From positions 1-64,000 of the IMG/VR virus record IMGVR_UViG_3300036820_000013: a stretch of 64,000 bases of DNA; one strand, 5' to 3'. Of this stretch, positions 8,321 to 30,607 are shown one piece after another. Origin of the DNA: a virus. Position 1 is the first letter of the stretch. Each line of letters opens with the position of its first letter. Both the position numbers and the translations under genes were made by a program. The notes below the pieces were generated by a model. The model saw only the letters and a list, made by a program, of their open reading frames with translations, searched no databases and had not been told where the DNA came from.

Positions 8321-8799
8321 TGGACAACCGCCGGCGCGCGATCAACTACGTTCGACAGAATTATCCGATTGTGAAGCGGAAAGAGCCGGCAGCCACGATT
8401 GTTGATCGTGCGATGGACCCTGAACAGCCTGGCAGCCTCGCACAGCTACTGACCGGCCCTCAGCGCAAGCGCATCCAGAGGCATCGCGGCGGCGAGGGCG
8501 TTCACAGACAGCGGCAACGTGCCGCTAGCAAGTCCCGCGTCAGTCGGCGACTTGCTCACTACGCGGCCCTCTTTGGGCCGAAGGAGGTACAAGGTGTACA
8601 AGGGAGCGAGCAACTCACAGGGCCCGGCGCTGTCGAAGGTCGGCTGGGAGCAGCAGCTACTGAGGCAGTCTCAGACGGACACCTGGAAGCTGCAGGGTCT
8701 GACCTAGCTCGGCCATGTGAAAAGTGTGGCGCGCTCGCAGGCGAGCGGTGCAAGACCGCTTCAGGAAAGCCTGCAGCCAAGTCGCACAGCAATCGTTAG
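8320..8799 (+). CDS. Basic protein with C-terminal zinc motif (159 aa)
   Basis: The first 90 residues are strongly basic and look nucleic-acid binding. The last 35 residues carry PCEKCGALAGERCKT followed by H-x2-R, the C-x2-C-x6-C-x9-11-H pattern of a small zinc motif frequent in actinobacterial and actinophage proteins. The central segment (about 95-125) is less protein-like and overlaps another reading frame with a strong ribosome site at 8580-8594, so a frame problem or true gene overlap is possible. Confidence 0.6.
   Translation: MDNRRRAINYVRQNYPIVKRKEPAATIVDRAMDPEQPGSLAQLLTGPQRKRIQRHRGGEGVHRQRQRAASKSRVSRRLAHYAALFGPKEVQGVQGSEQLTGPGAVEGRLGAAATEAVSDGHLEAAGSDLARPCEKCGALAGERCKTASGKPAAKSHSNR
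8594..8707 (+). CDS. Possible overlapping miniprotein (37 aa)
   Basis: GAAGGAGG sits about six bases before a GTG at 8594 that opens a 37-codon frame (VYKGASNSQGPALSKVGWEQ...) within the gene at 8320. The residue mix is balanced and the ribosome site is among the best in the region, so either both frames are used or only one is. I cannot decide from sequence alone. Confidence 0.35.
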   Translation: MYKGASNSQGPALSKVGWEQQLLRQSQTDTWKLQGLT

Positions 8800-8821
8800 C
8801 AAAGCAGCCCAATTAACCTAG

Positions 8822-8869
8822 AGGGGACACCTACTTAGTGTGTCCCCTAAAAGGAGCGCTACGGCGCTC
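8822..8869 (+). promoter_or_regulatory. Tandem-hairpin leader, copy I
   Basis: AGGGGACAC (8822-8830) pairs with GTGTCCCCT (8840-8848) around a 9-base loop; GAGCGC (8854-8859) pairs with GCGCTC (8864-8869) around TACG. The ribosome site GAAAGGGA and ATG 8891 follow. Same long-plus-short hairpin layout as copies E-G; the loop motif is different. Confidence 0.5.
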
Positions 8870-8890
8870 ACTCACGATTGAAAGGGAACC

Positions 8891-10087
8891 ATGTCCAAGT
8901 TCAAGAAGAGGGCTTTCAGTCTAGCGGCCGGAGCCCTGCTCGCTGGAGGCCTAGGCCTCGGTGCAGCTGCGGGAACGGCCCATGCCGCGACCGTAACAGC
9001 GTCGGCCACGACAACGCTGCATGCTAGGCCTGATTCGGGCTACGCCGGCAATAACTGGGCGAACGATTCGATGACGCGAGTTTCAACGGTGACGCTCGTC
9101 GGCGCGGATGCTACGCTGGCTGACTGTGGCGCGGACGCTACGTCCTGCTACAGCTACACCGGCACGATCGCCGACACAGGAACGGCCTATGCGATCACTG
9201 GCGAGACGTCGCCTGGAGCTCAGGGAGTGCCGATTCAGGGCACCCCCACCGCGGCGATCACCGGCAACGCGACCGTGACGTTCGATGCCTCGTCTGACGC
9301 TCCCAACGGAGCCCTCGTAGTCACCTCCCTAACCGGGGCGGGCAGTACTGAGCAGTCGACCGGCAATTGGGTTGAGCAGTTCTTCCCAGTTGGCACAACA
9401 TTCGGCAGCGGCCCGCAGTTGCTGCCTACCTGGGCGTGGTCCTACGCAGACACCAAGGATTGCCAGAACTGGGTCGACGCTAAGAACGTCAGCCCGGCCG
9501 ATAGCGGCGACATCACCGGTGTGGACAGCTGTGTTACGACGGTAGCTCCGCTCGGCAACCAGACAGTGACCATCGGGACGCCTGCATCGGTTCAGGTGTT
9601 CGGTGCCACGACCAGCAGCGACACGGCGCTGACCTACACGGCCAGCGGGTTGCCGGCAGGTCTGAGTATCGATGCAACCACCGGCCTGATCAGCGGTACG
9701 CCTACGGCTAGCGCAGTCGGCGGCACTGTGAATGTTACGGTAGCTGACTTCGGCGGCCTCAAGGCAAGTACAGCCTTCGGTGTCACGGTTAACCAGCCGG
9801 CGCCTCCCCCGCCGCCGCCGCCCGCTAAGAACGTCCTGTCTGATGGACATGTCGTCTCTGGGACGCTCCTACCGACTAGGGCCACGGTCGCCTGGGACCA
9901 AAGCATTCCGACGGCTGACACTCTGACCATCAACGGTCCGGGTGCGATCAATGGGCACGTCGGGCACGTTCCGGCCGGTACTACTCAAGGTGCCTACTCC
10001 GGCCTAGAGAGCGGTCACACCTACACGGTCACGATCGTGACGTCGGATGGGACCACAGGCCGCGTCACCTTTGTGACTACCAAGTAA
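8891..10087 (+). CDS. Secreted protein with Ig-like and FN3-like domains (398 aa)
   Basis: A Sec signal peptide (MSKFKKRAFSLAAGALLAGG..., cleavage near AHA-ATV at about residue 33) leads a Thr/Ala/Gly-rich beta protein. Residues about 215-295 match a putative-Ig (He_PIG-like) pattern (LPAGLSIDATTGLISGTP), a run of prolines follows at about 300-307, and the last 85 residues look like a fibronectin III-type domain. No catalytic motif is seen. It would be exported by the infected cell. Candidate roles (binding the cell wall or polysaccharide, blocking receptors) are inference. Confidence 0.7.
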   Translation: MSKFKKRAFSLAAGALLAGGLGLGAAAGTAHAATVTASATTTLHARPDSGYAGNNWANDSMTRVSTVTLVGADATLADCGADATSCYSYTGTIADTGTAYAITGETSPGAQGVPIQGTPTAAITGNATVTFDASSDAPNGALVVTSLTGAGSTEQSTGNWVEQFFPVGTTFGSGPQLLPTWAWSYADTKDCQNWVDAKNVSPADSGDITGVDSCVTTVAPLGNQTVTIGTPASVQVFGATTSSDTALTYTASGLPAGLSIDATTGLISGTPTASAVGGTVNVTVADFGGLKASTAFGVTVNQPAPPPPPPPAKNVLSDGHVVSGTLLPTRATVAWDQSIPTADTLTINGPGAINGHVGHVPAGTTQGAYSGLESGHTYTVTIVTSDGTTGRVTFVTTK

Positions 10088-10898: not shown

Positions 10899-11190
10899 CA
10901 GCCTGCGCAAGATTCGGCTTGGCCGGCCGGCTACCTATCCATGGGACGAGTGGACGGATGGTAGGGAGCGCCTCCTCAGGGAGGGGCAGGAGTTCACATG
11001 TATGGCTGAGAGCTTCGTCCTATTGGCTCGCCGTACCGCTCGCGTCCGAGGCCTACACGTTGTCGCGTCGACAACAACGGTCCCAGCCAATGCCGGTCCT
11101 CTCATGATTCGGGTTGACAGCATGCCAACCTGGCTCCAGCCTGGCGGGACTTACGTTCTGCTCAAGTTCACACCCCAGGAGGAGGAATGA
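10882..11190 (+). CDS. Hypothetical protein (102 aa)
   Basis: Unrecognised 102-residue protein with alternating strands (FVLLARRTARVRGLHVVAST, GGTYVLLKF), likely a small beta barrel. ATG 10882 follows GAGGAGG. It overlaps the SsgA-like gene by four bases (ATGA), so the two are probably cotranslated. Confidence 0.6.
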   Translation: MAYFPNSLRKIRLGRPATYPWDEWTDGRERLLREGQEFTCMAESFVLLARRTARVRGLHVVASTTTVPANAGPLMIRVDSMPTWLQPGGTYVLLKFTPQEEE

Positions 11191-11606
11191 CCCTCTCAGG
11201 AATGGAATCGAATACGGAAGTCGTTTTCCATATAGAGTGGCGAGTACTAAGCCTGCCCAACCGGCCGATAGCAGATTCCTTCCTCTGCTGGGCCAAAAGA
11301 GCACCGGCTGAAATAACTGTAGCCTTCCATGCGGCGGGCACTATCAGGCCTTGGACGTTTGCACGCGGTCTGCTGCTAGAGGGGCTTTGCGAAGGCGTAG
11401 CAGGCCAGGGCGACGTCCGCATCACCTCTGGGCTAGGCAATTTGGTCCTGTCGCTCAGTAGCCCATACGGCACTGCTAGGCTCCAAACAGGTACAGCCTT
11501 GGTCAAGCACTTCCTGGACTGCACCTACTCGATCGTTTCTCGTGAAGAGGAAACAATCGACATCGATGCAGTGCTAGTGCAGATCTTCGAGAAGGAGGGC
11601 ATGTGA
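11187..11606 (+). CDS. SsgA-like sporulation/cell-division protein (139 aa)
   Basis: Length and motif order match the SsgA-like (SALP) family of sporulating actinomycetes, whose members (SsgA, SsgB) steer septum placement by recruiting FtsZ. Visible family features: an early beta region ending AFHAAGTIRPWTFARGLLLE (W-x-FARxLL), then GxGDV(R), a G-x-A segment, FLDxTY and a conserved SREEETIDID block near the end. The host would use this family during sporulation septation; a phage copy could block or redirect host division. Family assignment is by sequence memory; effect is inference. Confidence 0.75.
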   Translation: MTLSGMESNTEVVFHIEWRVLSLPNRPIADSFLCWAKRAPAEITVAFHAAGTIRPWTFARGLLLEGLCEGVAGQGDVRITSGLGNLVLSLSSPYGTARLQTGTALVKHFLDCTYSIVSREEETIDIDAVLVQIFEKEGM

Positions 11607-11668
11607 TCTGGTTCGTTCTAGGCGGGGCCTGGCTAGTGATCTTCCTAGTTGCTCTGGCAGTCGGATGA
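11603..11668 (+). CDS. Single-span membrane miniprotein (21 aa)
   Basis: A GTG at 11603, preceded by GAAGGAGG at 11591-11598, opens a 21-codon frame that is almost wholly one membrane helix (WFVLGGAWLVIFLVALAV). It overlaps the SsgA-like gene at its start and the next gene at its stop (ATGA). Small size limits certainty, but spacing and coupling are those of a real gene. Confidence 0.5.
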   Translation: MIWFVLGGAWLVIFLVALAVG

Positions 11669-12084
11669 GCAACCTATTCAAGCGCCAGGCTGTCTTCGGT
11701 GCTGCTGACGGAGTCACTTCCGTTCTCGGCCTGCTAGTAACGCTAACTGGTCATCCCTCTGTCCTGTTCAAGGCCGCTCTTGGTGTTGGGCTAGCTGAGC
11801 TCGTCGGTATGACCGCAGGAGCTTGGCTCAGCGATGAAGATGACGAAGGGTTCCTGCCTGCATTGACCAATGGCGCTGCCTCATGTGCTGCAATCCTATT
11901 GCCTGCAGCCCCTTACCTCTTCCTACGTGGGACGTCCGCGATTGTTGCTGCGATCTTGCTCATCGGGTTCATCGCGGGCGTGATCTCTTGGCTTCGGCCA
12001 GAGAAAGGGTTCCTCGCGCTGGCCGAGACCTATGGAGTCCTACTCATAGCCGCTGCGATCTGCACTGCAGCCACGTTTATCTAG
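11665..12084 (+). CDS. VIT1/CCC1-like membrane protein (139 aa)
   Basis: Four or so hydrophobic segments and the opening FKRQAVFGAADGVTSVLGLL resemble the first helix of VIT1/CCC1-type iron/manganese transporters (RxxxxGxxDGxxxxxG). It is shorter than free-standing members (139 versus about 230 residues) and has an acidic DEDDEG loop after the second span, where the family keeps metal ligands. It would sit in the host membrane. Transport activity is not proven by sequence. Confidence 0.6.
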   Translation: MSNLFKRQAVFGAADGVTSVLGLLVTLTGHPSVLFKAALGVGLAELVGMTAGAWLSDEDDEGFLPALTNGAASCAAILLPAAPYLFLRGTSAIVAAILLIGFIAGVISWLRPEKGFLALAETYGVLLIAAAICTAATFI

Positions 12085-13199: not shown

Positions 13200-13640
13200 A
13201 TGGTACGTCCGGTGAGGCAAGCTCACCTCCGAGCGTCCTTGAGCAAGACGCGAAGCTGGTCGGCTCCGTTGGGTACGACGGAGCCGGCCGGGCCGGCATC
13301 AGTTTGTTCAGGGGCGGGTGAGGATCGGACTAGCTCCGGTCTGGCGCCGAATAGGCATATAGGGCGGGTTCGAGGCCCGCGCCGCCCACGAAGCTGTATG
13401 TGGGTGCAGCCACAGACAGCCTGCGCTAGCCCGGTAGCGTGTATCCGCCTAAGCGGACAAGGGGCTCAGCCTCCCGGGACCTCAAACTCGGGCGCCCAGC
13501 AGCGTAAGGCGGAGCAGCTGGGCGCTCGTTCAAACCTGGGGCACCCGTTGTGGGCGGTTGATCGCGCCGCTACTACGGTTGCAGGTCCTGTCCCACTGCT
13601 GGGCGCAGCGGGTGTCCCAGGCCGAATTGGGCCATTACTA
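13200..13640 (+). other. Noncoding, hairpin-rich stretch (~450 bases)
   Basis: Between the stops/starts at 13191 and 13655 I see no convincing gene. The stretch contains GGTGAG/CTCACC (13211-13227), a 9-bp CGGCTCCGT/ACGGAGCCG hairpin (13261-13286), a tRNA-like fold (13312-13388), TCCGC/GCGGA (13444-13457) and a perfect 9-bp GCGCCCAGC/GCTGGGCGC stem (13492-13525). It may encode one or several phage RNAs. It is the longest gene-free stretch in the window. Confidence 0.5.
13312..13388 (+). tRNA. tRNA-like element, possibly degenerate
   Basis: GGGCGG (13312-13317) can pair with CCGCCC (13382-13387). Between them lies a perfect T-arm: GCGGG (13364-13368), loop TTCGAGG, CCCGC (13376-13380). A three-pair D-arm-like GGA/TCC is present. 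I cannot fold a proper anticodon arm with T33, position 7/66 is G-G, and no CCA is encoded. It may be a decayed tRNA, a tRNA mimic or the 3' tRNA part of an old attachment site. Confidence 0.35.
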
Positions 13641-13654
13641 ATGGAGGGTTGACC

Positions 13655-14029
13655 ATGGCTGACATTGTCGATGCGAGGCTTTACGAGCAGTGCACGAAAG
13701 TCTATGACGCGATGATGAAGAACAGTCAGCCAACCGGAGACCTCTCTAGCCGAGCCTACAGAGGGTACACGACATACCTTCTCGAGCAGGCCGGCTACAG
13801 CTTGTCAAACTACACGCCTATCATGCGCAGGTTGCGGGCGATGGGCTGCATTACACAGCGGGTGCGCGGGGGCCGCGGTACGCCAAGCGAATGGCTACTG
13901 CACAAGCCTCCGACCCGAGCTGCGTTCGCTCGGGGCGGACAGCGTTGGGTAGCCCAGAACGAGCGCATCAACGATCTAGAGGAGCGGGTCTCCGCTCTGG
14001 AAGCCCAGATGGAAGAGCAGGCGAGTTAA
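13655..14029 (+). CDS. Putative winged-helix protein with coiled-coil tail (124 aa)
   Basis: Residues about 30-90 (YTTYLLEQAGYSLSNYTPIM, RRLRAMGCITQRVRGGRGTP) read as a winged helix, with the wing at RGGRGTPSEW; the last 25 residues (ERINDLEERVSALEAQMEEQ) form a leucine-heptad coiled coil for oligomerisation. Likely a small DNA-binding regulator. GGAGGG precedes ATG 13655. It follows the hairpin-rich noncoding stretch and overlaps the next gene (TAATG). Confidence 0.65.
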   Translation: MADIVDARLYEQCTKVYDAMMKNSQPTGDLSSRAYRGYTTYLLEQAGYSLSNYTPIMRRLRAMGCITQRVRGGRGTPSEWLLHKPPTRAAFARGGQRWVAQNERINDLEERVSALEAQMEEQAS

Positions 14030-14394
14030 TGGACCTATCACCCAAGCCGATCTATCGCGTGCGGTTCGAGACAGTCTCAATCAGCGAGCTCCACAAGTAC
14101 TGCAACGCAGACCCGCGGTTCTACAAGAACGTCACGCAGCTTGTGCCTAACTCGCAGATACCTGACGAGGACTGGCATGAGGTCCTAGGGCACGAGACAG
14201 ACAACCCTTGGGACCAGTTCAACAATCTCATGACGTGGGTACTAGCAGACCGCGAGTTCGTACGTAAGGTAACGGTCGAGCTCCAGCCTGATCCAACCTG
14301 GCGTCCTCTCAGCGCAGAAGAGCTGGAAGAAGCAGCTAAACTAGCTGGAAAACCCGCGCTAAATCCCCCTATCCTCCAAGATCCTCAACTCTAG
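14029..14394 (+). CDS. Hypothetical protein (121 aa)
   Basis: Unrecognised 121-residue soluble protein. The start overlaps the preceding stop. The 80-base gap after it holds a GATCAC/GTGATC hairpin and otherwise nothing I can name. Confidence 0.6.
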   Translation: MDLSPKPIYRVRFETVSISELHKYCNADPRFYKNVTQLVPNSQIPDEDWHEVLGHETDNPWDQFNNLMTWVLADREFVRKVTVELQPDPTWRPLSAEELEEAAKLAGKPALNPPILQDPQL

Positions 14395-17825: not shown

Positions 17826-17997
17826 CGGAACTCCATTGGAAGAGTTCGGGCTGCATGAACCGATCATCGACCCCGAATGGGCTGATCGCATCCGCTCCCT
17901 CGCCAAGTACAGCCCATCGCACTGGACCCCGGGCGAGATCGCCAAGCTAATGCAACTGGCCGAAACCCAGGTCAAGAATATCCTCGAGGACACATGA
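17722..17997 (+). CDS. Zinc-knuckle/HTH-like protein (91 aa)
   Basis: CKKCQ near the start and one later Cys suggest a half zinc knuckle; the C-terminal 40 residues (HWTPGEIAKLMQLAETQVKN) resemble a helix-turn-helix. ATG 17722 has GAGGAGG upstream within the previous gene. Ends in ATGA overlap with queE. Confidence 0.6.
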   Translation: MKPVECKKCQEKITQLPTGTWIDGLGVVFCLRQPNGTPLEEFGLHEPIIDPEWADRIRSLAKYSPSHWTPGEIAKLMQLAETQVKNILEDT

Positions 17998-18776
17998 CTG
18001 AGACGCTCCTGGTCAATGAAATCTTTGGGCCCACTATTCAGGGCGAAGGACCCGCAACCGGACGCAAGTGCGCCTTCGTTCGACTAGCGATCTGCCCGCT
18101 TCGTTGTCGCTGGTGCGATACCGCCTACACTTGGGCGTTCACGCCCTCGCTCGCGCTGAGGCACCAGAGTCATATCACGTATGACGGGGCAGAAGAAGTG
18201 CACAAGATGTCGATTGAGGACATCGTTAAGCACACGCTACACGCGCTAAAAGGCTCGCAGTTGGTCATCCTATCAGGTGGTGAGCCACTAGCTCAGGTCC
18301 CGCCAAGTATGCAGCGTCCTGATGCGGTCACCACCGATAATGCCGACCCTGTGGCGATGCTAATCAAGGAACTCTACATACATGGAGTCCTGACACATAT
18401 CGAGACCGCGGGAGTTCGGCTACCCAGTCCTTATCTACACCAATACGTTAACCGCTACGTCGTGTCCCCGAAGCTAGTCACTAGTGGCAATAGCCTAGAG
18501 GCGCGCCGAAAGCTTGACGTCCTGGAGTTCTTCGCTCAGACCGCCAAGGCTGACTTCAAGTTCGTTATTACCACGCCTGCAGACTTCAGTGAAGTCGCCC
18601 TGATCGAGAACCTATGTCGCATCCCTCAGGAACGCATCTGGGTGATGCCGGAAGGGACTACGGCAGAAGCGATTCAGCGCAAACTGCCGATGGTAGCTGA
18701 AGGCGCGCTCAAGCATGGCTATAACGTCTCGACCCGACTTCATGTTCACATCTGGGGCGACGAGAGGAAGCGCTAA
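17994..18776 (+). CDS. queE: 7-carboxy-7-deazaguanine synthase (QueE)
   Basis: Radical-SAM enzyme that rearranges 6-carboxy-tetrahydropterin to 7-carboxy-7-deazaguanine (CDG), third step of 7-deazaguanine synthesis. Seen: the N-terminal substrate-binding stretch NEIFGPTIQGEGPATGRKCA, then C34-x3-C38-x2-C41 for the 4Fe-4S cluster, followed by the SAM-binding SGGEPL (about 95-100). At 260 residues it is slightly longer than the usual about 210-245. It is cotranslated with the gene before it (ATGA) and lies 10.6 kb from queD, folE and the dpdA-like gene, which complete the pathway. Confidence 0.92.
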   Translation: MTETLLVNEIFGPTIQGEGPATGRKCAFVRLAICPLRCRWCDTAYTWAFTPSLALRHQSHITYDGAEEVHKMSIEDIVKHTLHALKGSQLVILSGGEPLAQVPPSMQRPDAVTTDNADPVAMLIKELYIHGVLTHIETAGVRLPSPYLHQYVNRYVVSPKLVTSGNSLEARRKLDVLEFFAQTAKADFKFVITTPADFSEVALIENLCRIPQERIWVMPEGTTAEAIQRKLPMVAEGALKHGYNVSTRLHVHIWGDERKR

Positions 18777-21210: not shown

Positions 21211-22320
21211 ATGAACAAGCTACTCAGTATCGGAGCCGCACTGGCCCTACTCACTGGAGCTGGCCTAGGCGTGAATGCTGCCGCATCAGCAAGTCCGGCC
21301 TGGACTGCCAGCTGTGCAGCGGGTGCATCGACTAGCGCCTCAGGCTGCGGGTCGTGGGATGCGGCACCATCCTCAGGGCAGGCTCCAGGGTTCCTCGCCG
21401 GTCAGCAGTCTCAACCCAACCTGATCGACGTCAATCAGGACGGCTGGTCAGGTAGTCAGGGAGCGCAGTCCATCTCTGCGTCTACCTATCAGAACTGGAG
21501 CGTTACTGCAACAGACACGCCCCCACAGGCGAACTCAGCCCAGATCCTCACCTACCCAGACACGAGCTTCAACTACTACCAGCTCAACGCGGCTCCGAAC
21601 TATACGGACCCGCCTAGCGGATACGACCTGAACAATATCAGTTCTCTGACCAGCTCGTACAGCGAGACCATGCCGGCGACCTCAGACAAGTACACGGCCG
21701 AGGCCGCCTACGACATCTGGTTGAACAACTGGGACACCGAGGTCATGGTGTGGACCGACGTTCACTATCAAGGCGTCGACTGTGGCGGCCCAGGCTGGAC
21801 GCCGGAGTGCAGCGGTGACACCCTGCTCGGCAACTATACCTACGACGGCCAGCAGTGGTCTCTATACGACAACGGCGGCGGCATCAACGGTTACTACATG
21901 TGGATTCCGGACAACGGGACAGCCCTAGATGCGGTCAGCCAGCCGAGCGGAACCGTCGACCTGAAGGACATGCTAGCTCAGACCGCCACCTCCGGCAAGT
22001 TCACGGCCGACTCTCCACTGACCTCAATCGACTACGGTTGGGAAATCGCTGACACGGGAGGCAAGCCACTTACCTTCACAATGAACAGCCTCAGCGTGAG
22101 TATCAACGGCAGTACTACCCCACCGCCGGCACCCACGACCACGCCGACTACGCCTGCACCTACTACGCCGCCGCCAAGTACTCCTCCCCCCACGCCTAGT
22201 TCGGCAACGATCTACGCCTGTGCCGCCAAGAGCGGTGCGATCAGCAAGCTCAACGATACAACGGCGCCTACATGCGCTAGCGGCTCCACACCCATCTCAT
22301 GGTCCGCCCAGGAAGGCTAG
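21211..22320 (+). CDS. Secreted GH12-like glycoside hydrolase (369 aa)
   Basis: Sec signal peptide at 1-28 (LLSIGAALALLTGAGLGVNA). Residues about 65-295 follow the GH12 endoglucanase beta-jelly-roll: AAYDIWLNN then T-E177-V-M-V-W for the nucleophile, and DYGWE278IA for the acid/base, the two glutamates at the usual separation; the closing strand FTMNSLSVSI also fits. A Pro/Thr linker and a C-terminal IYACAAKSGAISKL-type beta domain with two Cys follow. GH12 enzymes cut beta-1,4/1,3-1,4-glucans; here the substrate could be host extracellular or hyphal glycan. Family call is mine by motif. Confidence 0.65.
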   Translation: MNKLLSIGAALALLTGAGLGVNAAASASPAWTASCAAGASTSASGCGSWDAAPSSGQAPGFLAGQQSQPNLIDVNQDGWSGSQGAQSISASTYQNWSVTATDTPPQANSAQILTYPDTSFNYYQLNAAPNYTDPPSGYDLNNISSLTSSYSETMPATSDKYTAEAAYDIWLNNWDTEVMVWTDVHYQGVDCGGPGWTPECSGDTLLGNYTYDGQQWSLYDNGGGINGYYMWIPDNGTALDAVSQPSGTVDLKDMLAQTATSGKFTADSPLTSIDYGWEIADTGGKPLTFTMNSLSVSINGSTTPPPAPTTTPTTPAPTTPPPSTPPPTPSSATIYACAAKSGAISKLNDTTAPTCASGSTPISWSAQEG

Positions 22321-28208: not shown

Positions 28209-28574
28209 GTGAAAAATCAGCAGCATAGTCAATCGGCGTTCTCTGACGACAGCCTAGGACTCAATCCTGACTTCGTGGTCTGTGGTGGACCGACAGCTAA
28301 CGGTTGGGTTCGTCTCTTCGCTAGCAAAGACCTAACGCGAGCTGAGCTCGACGTCGTCGAAGACTACGAAGACATCGACATCAGCTGGTATAGGGTTGAG
28401 ATGCTTCCTCGAAGGACTCACCGAACCATCACGCTATCGACAGTCCTGAAGCACCTCATTATCATCGAGGCGCCTGACTACAAAACTGCCTGGGAATCTC
28501 TATTCAAGGATTGGTCGCCCGAGCGTGCCGCCAAACCTGCGATCACCAAAGGGCAGCCCCAGCTGGAGGCATGA
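28209..28574 (+). CDS. Hypothetical protein (121 aa), first gene after leader RNA
   Basis: Unrecognised 121-residue protein; starts at GTG 28209 with AAAGGA about 8 bases upstream. The N-terminal part (GLNPDFVVCGGPTANGWVRL) looks like beta strands. It overlaps queD by four bases, so it may take part in, or regulate, deazaguanine synthesis; that is inference from position. Confidence 0.6.
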   Translation: MKNQQHSQSAFSDDSLGLNPDFVVCGGPTANGWVRLFASKDLTRAELDVVEDYEDIDISWYRVEMLPRRTHRTITLSTVLKHLIIIEAPDYKTAWESLFKDWSPERAAKPAITKGQPQLEA

Positions 28575-29059
28575 TGTTTCGCATTTCCAAGACCTTCGAG
28601 TTCTCAGCGGCTCATCGCCTGAACGGTCTCGATCAAGGCCATCCCTGCGGTCGAATGCACGGTCACAACTACGTCATCGAGCTGTTCCTAGAAGCCCCTA
28701 GCCTAGACCCAGTAGGCTTCGTGCGCGACTACCGCGAGCTAGATCACTTCAAGGAGTGGCTAGACGCGACGTTCGACCATCACCTCGTCAACGAGACTGT
28801 TACGCAGCCAACTGCTGAACTGATGGCGATGGCGATCTACCACCGCGCCGTAGCAATGTATCATGAGGTCGTTGCAGTGTCGGTCAAAGAGACCGGCAAG
28901 ACGACCGCAGTGTATGCGCCGCATTCACTCCCGCCGCTCGATACGGTGCTCAACGTGCTCGAAACCCTAGCTGAGGAGCCGCCTGGTAGCGCCGATCGCG
29001 TGCGCCTCCAAACGGCGCTGCATCTCTTGGGCTTCCAACCCGAAGGGCTAGGTGCTTGA
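28571..29059 (+). CDS. queD: 6-carboxy-tetrahydropterin synthase (QueD)
   Basis: Converts 7,8-dihydroneopterin triphosphate to 6-carboxy-tetrahydropterin, second step towards 7-deazaguanine. Zinc ligands H15 (FSAAHRL) and H30/H32 (MHGHNY) and the catalytic C26 (HPCGR) are in place; DHHLVNE and the late KETGKT (E of the pterin pocket) follow. A C-terminal extension of about 30 residues is unusual. Overlaps folE by one base. Confidence 0.9.
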   Translation: MMFRISKTFEFSAAHRLNGLDQGHPCGRMHGHNYVIELFLEAPSLDPVGFVRDYRELDHFKEWLDATFDHHLVNETVTQPTAELMAMAIYHRAVAMYHEVVAVSVKETGKTTAVYAPHSLPPLDTVLNVLETLAEEPPGSADRVRLQTALHLLGFQPEGLGA

Positions 29060-29646
29060 TGATCGAGCGTAACGACGAAGGCCGCCTCGAAATGGATGAC
29101 GCGACCCCCGAAGAGCTCATGGCCGTGATTCTTAATCAAGTGATGCCAGACTTCGACTGGGAGAACGACGACGTCAGGGAAACGCCTCGGCGGTTCATTA
29201 AGATGCTCCGTGAGCTGACCGATGCGAGCGAGAACTGGAAGTTCACGACCTTCAAGTCCGACTCGAAGGAAATGGTCATCGTGAAGAACATCCGCTTCGT
29301 GAGCCTCTGCTCACACCACCTAGCGCCTTATACAGGCGTCTGCCACGTCGGCTACATTCCTGACGGCGAAATCGCAGGCTTGTCCAAGCTGGCTCGCCAG
29401 GTGCAAACAGCTGCGAAGATGCCGTCCGTACAGGAAGAGATGACGACCGCGATCGCGGACGCCCTCAACGACATTCTCGATCCGTCCGGCGTGATTGTCG
29501 TCATGCGGGCGCATCACTCATGCATGAGCCTCCGCGGAGCGCTCGCTCACGAAGCCGAAACGATCACGTCGGCTGTCCGCGGAGTGTTCTACAGCAACGA
29601 ACGAGGAATCAAAGAAGAATTCCTGCGCTTGATCGGACTGCCATGA
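29059..29646 (+). CDS. folE: GTP cyclohydrolase I (FolE)
   Basis: Makes dihydroneopterin triphosphate from GTP, first step of the pathway. The zinc site is complete: C84 and H87 in VSLCSHHLAPYTG and C155 in AHHSCMSLRG. GLSKLARQVQ is the family's GTP-pocket helix. 195 residues matches the usual length. ATG 29059 overlaps the queD stop. A phage copy ensures precursor supply for DNA modification. Confidence 0.92.
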   Translation: MIERNDEGRLEMDDATPEELMAVILNQVMPDFDWENDDVRETPRRFIKMLRELTDASENWKFTTFKSDSKEMVIVKNIRFVSLCSHHLAPYTGVCHVGYIPDGEIAGLSKLARQVQTAAKMPSVQEEMTTAIADALNDILDPSGVIVVMRAHHSCMSLRGALAHEAETITSAVRGVFYSNERGIKEEFLRLIGLP

Positions 29647-29804
29647 CTTGGAGAGACATTGCGCAGCGCTACCCTGAATTCGCGCAATGGATAGTAGCCA
29701 AATATGGACCGCTACCTGACGGAGAAGTAACTCAAACAGACTACGAGCGCTTCGCGGACGCTGATCGAGAGAGGCTCTTGACGATCGAGAGGCTAAATAA
29801 ATGA
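29643..29804 (+). CDS. Hypothetical small protein (53 aa)
   Basis: A 53-residue acidic helical protein (IAQRYPEFAQWIVAKYG) between folE and the dpdA-like gene, overlapping both by four bases (ATGA). Its tight coupling suggests a role with the modification enzymes, but nothing in the sequence shows one. Confidence 0.55.
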   Translation: MTWRDIAQRYPEFAQWIVAKYGPLPDGEVTQTDYERFADADRERLLTIERLNK

Positions 29805-30607
29805 GCAGCATCGATATCGCGCTCATCGCTCCTGGAGCACTAACTGAGCGGTACGGCGAAGGCCGCCGATTCCAAATGGCGCTAGCCGGAAACCTGGCCG
29901 ACGTCAGTCAAGTCGCCTACCACGAGTTCTACAACCAAGCATGGAAGCCATGGGGCGCTGAATGGCTACTCGACAACGGCGCCTGGGAAGGCAAGCTTCT
30001 AGGCGACGATGAGCTCATCCAGATTGCTAGGCGTTACCGCGCAACAGAAGTCATGGCTCCAGATGTCATCAACGATGCTGCGGCGACCCTCGGCAAGACC
30101 TTGGAGTTCCTAGACCAATGGCGAGAGCAGCGAGACCGTCACGTAGTTATGCCGCGTGTCGCAGCTGTCGCGCATGGCAGCACTACACGCGAGGCCATGG
30201 CCTTTGTTTACGAGATTGAGAAGGCTCCCGAGGTCAAGACCATCGCAATCGGGCGCGCCTACTCCCGCAAGGTCGGCAACCCAACCGCGCGGTACGAACT
30301 AGCCATGGAGATCAAGAAGCGATTCGGACAACGGTTCCAGATCCACTTGCTCGGGTTTAGCGATGAGTGGCCCACTGAGCTTCAGCACTGTAATGGGGTC
30401 CCAGGGCTGATTCGCAGCTGCGACACAGTCGCTCCCTTCACGTATGCCTATTACGGCTACCCGCTCGAGGCTGCTGGAGTTGCCAAGGCTCCTAGGCCGG
30501 ATAACTACTTCGACCTGACCCTGAACGACATCAACCGGTCGCTGCTTGAACGGAACATAGCAGAAATCGACAAGATGGCCCAATCCGAGAATTGGAGGCG
30601 TTCCTAG
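29801..30607 (+). CDS. dpdA: DpdA-like 7-deazaguanine DNA transglycosylase (268 aa)
   Basis: TGT-related enzyme expected to swap guanine in DNA for a 7-deazaguanine. Visible TIM-barrel landmarks: LLDNGAWE with D58, VMAPDVIND with D88, IAIGRAYSRK, IHLLG (181-185) and IRSCDTVAP with D208; the first and last aspartates sit where TGT/DpdA proteins keep their catalytic pair. At 268 residues it is of the short phage type. It follows folE and queD in one coupled operon. The exact DpdA subgroup cannot be set by eye. Confidence 0.8.
   Translation: MSSIDIALIAPGALTERYGEGRRFQMALAGNLADVSQVAYHEFYNQAWKPWGAEWLLDNGAWEGKLLGDDELIQIARRYRATEVMAPDVINDAAATLGKTLEFLDQWREQRDRHVVMPRVAAVAHGSTTREAMAFVYEIEKAPEVKTIAIGRAYSRKVGNPTARYELAMEIKKRFGQRFQIHLLGFSDEWPTELQHCNGVPGLIRSCDTVAPFTYAYYGYPLEAAGVAKAPRPDNYFDLTLNDINRSLLERNIAEIDKMAQSENWRRS

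Follow-up and report, generated by a model that had tools for sequence, protein, structure and literature searches.

SsgB and SsgA are host proteins that set division sites in spore-forming hyphae. Docking of SsgB to the membrane requires a membrane partner (PMC4852450), and single changes in the S. coelicolor protein can be severe: Y35H blocks division, V115G, G118V and E120G give tilted or rotated septa, and changes at P116/P117 often abolish sporulation (PMC8061694). Hardy et al. 2020 (PMC7650747) described a phage-borne ssgA gene in Streptomyces phage Dagobah and suggested that host development is manipulated by phages; their report is repeated in a later paper, which also describes the containment of phage infection by sporulating, mature hyphae (PMC10117723). 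Our literature search found no paper with an experimental test of a phage SsgA-like protein (SALP). A working analogy is provided by the WhiB protein of phage TM4 (WhiBTM4), a developmental regulator copied from the host, which inhibits mycobacterial WhiB2 and hinders septation (PMC7650747). TM4 WhiB belongs to an unrelated family, is a transcription factor and has been tested experimentally, whereas the protein described below is known from its sequence and a structural model.

Phage-borne SALPs are thus not first seen here, and the case we describe stands alongside that of Dagobah. The window, by which we mean the whole 64,000-nucleotide stretch that was analysed, belongs to a virus record of 79,080 bases (positions 1 to 64,000 of IMGVR_UViG_3300036820_000013). 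An open reading frame at 11187-11606 (+ strand) encodes a 139-aa SALP (P0001), hereafter the window SALP. The Pfam SsgA model, PF04686, matches it with E=9.9e-17 and 61.1 bits, above the curated cut-off of 25 bits, and matches in this one place only across the whole 79-kb record. Its best PDB sequence matches are SsgB of Thermobifida fusca (3cm1, E=2.6e-10) and of S. coelicolor (6slc, E=1.4e-7), while no PHROGs family covers it. The sequence contains the motifs that an earlier note had quoted in assigning this reading frame to the SsgA-like family, namely W-TFARGLL (W56-L63), GQGDV (G73-V77) and FLDCTY (109-114), as well as the acidic C-terminal end (REEETIDID), and the profile search bears out that assignment.

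That the gene is carried by a phage, as the note also held, is borne out by the large terminase, portal, major head protein, tape measure and DNA polymerase genes encoded on the same contig. The record is a metagenomic assembly, which might raise the question of misassembly or of a chance resemblance. With the Pfam match, the SsgB matches in the PDB and the single place of the match in the record, chance resemblance is ruled out, and an E-value near 1e-16, an SsgB fold and phage genes flanking the SALP on one 79-kb contig together refute both explanations, to which we give practically no weight.

We conclude that the SALP is carried by a tailed, soil-type phage of filamentous actinobacteria. 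The genome has a GC content of 57.5%, and its terminase is closest to those of Streptomyces phages KimJongPhill, Zuko and Dryad (40-44% identity). Hints as to the host differ, in that the terminase points to Streptomyces phages while for the SALP several actinomycete families lie at about the same distance (33-43% identity). No near-identical phage was present in the phage collection, and a search for related phages using the SNF2 helicase and the gene upstream of the SALP returned distant loci only. Elsewhere in the window are genes for a QueE-like radical SAM protein (17994-18776), a QueD-like PTPS (28511-29059), a FolE-like GTP cyclohydrolase I (29056-29646) and a TGT/DpdA-like protein (29801-30607; assigned by sequence only, with no Pfam match), which likely form a 7-deazaguanine (preQ0) DNA-modification set of the kind known from other phages. 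Further along the record (~72929-74297), a protein with LysM and Rpf-like transglycosylase domains (L014:12929-13546) overlaps an NlpC/P60 protein (13470-14297); both are probably lysis enzymes. Two secreted proteins with signal-peptide-like starts are encoded at 8891-10087, this one with a putative Ig (He_PIG) domain, and at 21211-22320.

The predicted structure of the window SALP agrees with its family assignment. An AlphaFold monomer model built from a 29-row alignment (pLDDT 88.5) has the same order of strands and helices as SsgB, a seven-stranded barrel with three helices, and the SsgB entries 3cm1 (E=4.7e-8) and 6slc (E=3.3e-7), with TM 0.69/0.75, are its sole PDB matches at E<0.001 in Foldseek. 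Thus neither outcome that the note had named as refuting its reading, a profile search lacking a significant SsgA/B hit or a predicted fold unlike that of SsgB, came about at the level of the monomer. A viral structure library gave four matches at E<0.001, namely Streptomyces phages TunaTartare, BillNye and Ibantik and one other entry, the BillNye match being labelled an SsgA family regulator. In the model alpha2 is predicted to reach residue 121, with moderate model confidence over this stretch (block means 84 and 70); in a control model of a cellular SsgB the helix stops at residue 118, ahead of the hinge loop. Family and fold mark the window SALP as genuine, although it is no straightforward SsgB orthologue.

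SALPs are far more widely distributed than the earlier note assumed in stating that they are known only from morphologically complex actinomycetes; this proved wrong. Using tblastn we found SALPs in about 31 named Streptomyces phages, including Dagobah and Ibantik, where they are mostly annotated as hypothetical, and further ones on several IMG/VR viral contigs. Kineococcus and MAGs of Nocardioidaceae and Propionibacteriales have them as well. The relatives on contigs were recovered by profile patterns; single-sequence patterns run against viral and genome contigs found no close relatives of the window SALP. On soil viral contigs (L095:7917-8348 and L096:7932-8363, 8619-9242, 11290-11715) a SALP adjoins an ECF-type sigma factor, with overlap on L095. 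A 5-kb record labelled human fecal phage, MT838510.1, encodes a SALP (249-653, - strand) 43% identical to a Streptomyces SALP and is possibly bacterial DNA. A 2.7-Mb actinomycete MAG (L045 / G010) has five SALP matches, many for a genome that small.

Among its top cellular BLASTP matches, the window SALP reaches a highest identity of 43% over 106 aa, to a protein from Actinoallomurus. Phages do sample host genes randomly, and the SALP might be a functionless, recently acquired passenger on its way to decay. This we consider highly improbable given so low an identity to its cellular matches, an intact reading frame with a strong Shine-Dalgarno sequence and tight overlaps on both sides, and the recurrence of SALPs across many phages; the lack of a close host copy indicates instead an old acquisition that was kept intact. 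On the best 55-row tree the phage SALP label needs 5 changes, and a single origin was found in 0 of 200 bootstrap trees, while the starred branches are compatible with one origin. The window SALP joins an Amycolatopsis SALP clade (support 87/88) on a very long branch (1.45), with an unsure placement and in no starred set.

This divergence, together with the unlike gene contexts of phage SALPs, would fit a reuse of the SALP scaffold for some other phage task, for instance as an adaptor to a phage or host protein outside division, as is seen for many small genes that phages recycle. Phage SALPs lie near Lsr2-like genes, near a primase-polymerase, or alongside genes for DNA polymerase and ThyX, and on L096 one is flanked by genes for a DnaB helicase and an ECF-type sigma factor, a second, weakly matching SALP lying close by on the other strand. 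Such reuse is on balance unlikely: phages of SALP-bearing hosts repeatedly carry this fold with its core conserved, which suggests that the SALP network itself is the target.

The window SALP sits in a run of small genes that are likely coupled in translation. Its ATG, directly preceded by the Shine-Dalgarno sequence AGGAGGAGGA (11176-11186, + strand), overlaps by 4 nt the stop of a gene for a 102-aa phage protein (10882-11190, + strand), which has a paralogue elsewhere in this phage (L014:8107-8442) and distant relatives on five further viral contigs. The two paralogues share YPWDxWTDG...FTC, and neither has a Pfam match. At the 3' end, 4 nt (GTGA) are shared between the SALP stop and the GTG start of a 21-aa single-pass membrane miniprotein, MIWFVLGGAWLVIFLVALAVG (11603-11668, + strand; start 11603, stop 11668; Shine-Dalgarno GAAGGAGGG), which is the adjoining membrane miniprotein the note had pointed to and which is likely translationally coupled to the SALP. 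The miniprotein stop is in turn overlapped by 4 nt by a reading frame for a 139-aa multi-pass membrane protein (11665-12084, + strand) that is weakly VIT1-like (PF01988, E=5.6e-5, below its cut-off). Among 190 long-ORF stops on the + strand, the SALP stop is alone in being followed by a tiny transmembrane reading frame equipped with a Shine-Dalgarno sequence, namely the window miniprotein.

The same arrangement is found in Dagobah. Its phage-borne PF04686 protein (HUN42_00031) is 43% identical to the window SALP over 67 aa, and the stop of its gene has the same GTGA overlap, into an annotated 29-aa single-pass membrane protein that is the smallest membrane-like product of the 89 Dagobah CDS. 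The Dagobah SALP differs in keeping the G of a VPTG hinge, in its longer hairpin and in the length of its miniprotein. At E<1e-4 the window phage and Dagobah have no protein in common besides the SALP, and a membrane-miniprotein neighbour of this kind was seen for none of 113 cellular SALP genes. A SALP with an overlapping tiny membrane ORF, common to the window phage and Dagobah, is an arrangement new here; it was spotted after the fact, and the pairing is for that reason a lead only. We considered a transmembrane miniprotein as a general partner of phage SALPs and rejected this, as the Loccivirinae SALPs lack one; the gene that comes after them encodes an acidic non-membrane protein of 50-65 aa, which is conserved. 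Ibantik has a 33-aa membrane ORF just upstream of its very diverged SALP, in a genome with other such ORFs.

Where phage SALPs depart from their cellular relatives was examined in 101 cellular and 14 phage rows, using S. coelicolor SsgB residue numbers. All six residues of the fold core (P34, W51, R55, L58, G69 and D70) are present in the window SALP, and across nearly all rows of both sets P34, W51, L58, G69 and D70 are kept and position 55 is R or K. This core is common to the window SALP and SsgB of S. coelicolor and T. fusca (6SLC, 3CM1), as is the fold; Y35, P75 and P116-G118 are not conserved. Tyr or Phe occupies position 35 in 93 of the 101 cellular rows, none of which has Ala there; Ala is found in 9 of the 14 phage rows, including the window SALP (A41). 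P75 occurs in 98/101 cellular versus 0/14 phage rows and G118 in 97/101 versus 4/14, counts that reflect few independent phage cases, since a single family, the Loccivirinae, supplies most of the 14 phage rows. As the 101-row cellular set is biased to query-like sequences, 18 whole-genome SALPs found by the Pfam model were checked separately; P75 and G118 were each present in 16 of the 18 and Ala35 in none.

Two segments of the window SALP are altered as a whole. After GQGDV the beta-hairpin is shortened (codons 71-85, 11397-11441, + strand), with the SsgB V-W-P-SRSHGQG loop reduced and P75 lost. In the alpha2-alpha3 hinge (codons 117-124, 11535-11558, + strand) the alignment places V-S-R-E-E-E-T where SsgB has V-P-P-G118-T-E120; E120 is retained, and helices 2 and 3 are not separated by a PPG break. 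Overall, the window SALP lacks the marks of an SsgB orthologue, namely an aromatic residue at 35, W-P after GDV and a PxG-x-E hinge. The SALPs of the Stanwilliamsviridae/Loccivirinae (Moab, TunaTartare, Comrade, BillNye, Wakanda and others) resemble it in their PF04686 fold, loss of P75 and short hairpin, and most also have PA[EA] for PYA, the exceptions being BillNye and Wakanda, which retain Tyr35; they differ in having the acidic non-membrane protein downstream and Lsr2-like genes near. As judged from these alignments, the invariant fold residues are preserved in phage SALPs, which diverge at positions where SsgB mutations disturb sporulation septation, a pattern new here.

These altered residues are no proof of lost function, because SsgB variants with such changes still bind their partners: G118V and V115G retain contact with wild-type SsgB, E120G retains FtsZ binding, and hinge variants still bind FtsZ and in some cases still bundle it (PMC8061694). 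This behaviour, the full SALP fold with all core residues, and a dedicated membrane miniprotein that would substitute for SepG docking could be taken to describe an active FtsZ recruiter, one that promotes or redirects septation and would, for instance, wall off infected compartments or load phage genomes into spores that disperse them. With Tyr35, P75 and the PPG hinge all lost, we regard such a role as unlikely.

Control of host septation by the window SALP is plausible. Its sequence does not resemble that of a straightforward working copy of SsgB, since it has lost residues on which SsgB function depends, and this tilts the idea to interference over promotion. The reading we favour, with a probability of roughly 0.4, is that the window SALP is a decoy that would displace host SsgB and delay sporulation septation during infection, perhaps with its own miniprotein as an anchor. 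Under this reading, a phage-acquired protein of the SsgB fold would be made from the coupled run of small genes and, in the infected hypha, would bind host SsgB and/or SsgA, or FtsZ. Because the hinge that sets the alpha3 angle and the Tyr35 contact are altered, the SALP would give no support for regular Z-ring placement; sporulation septation would be delayed, and the compartment would be kept open and vegetative for phage production. More tentatively, the coupled 21-aa membrane protein may hold the SALP at the membrane, as SepG does for SsgB. A more elaborate proposal is a two-part module in which a hinge-altered SALP with its own single-pass anchor replaces SepG docking and captures or misplaces SsgB/FtsZ, gained at least twice by unrelated phages of filamentous actinobacteria (window phage and Dagobah) as part of a convergent phage habit of hinge-disabled SALPs; this we find decidedly doubtful.

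The SALP trait is widespread, in about 31 named Streptomyces phages, and has mostly been missed in annotation; cultured phages, Dagobah and TunaTartare among them, therefore make it open to immediate testing. If phage SALPs do act on host septation, evolution would have furnished in them natural modifiers of SsgB, among whose working parts are the alpha3 angle and membrane docking, and they would offer tools for probing positive FtsZ control in Streptomyces. They would also lend support to the idea that actinophages counter the developmental escape of their hosts.
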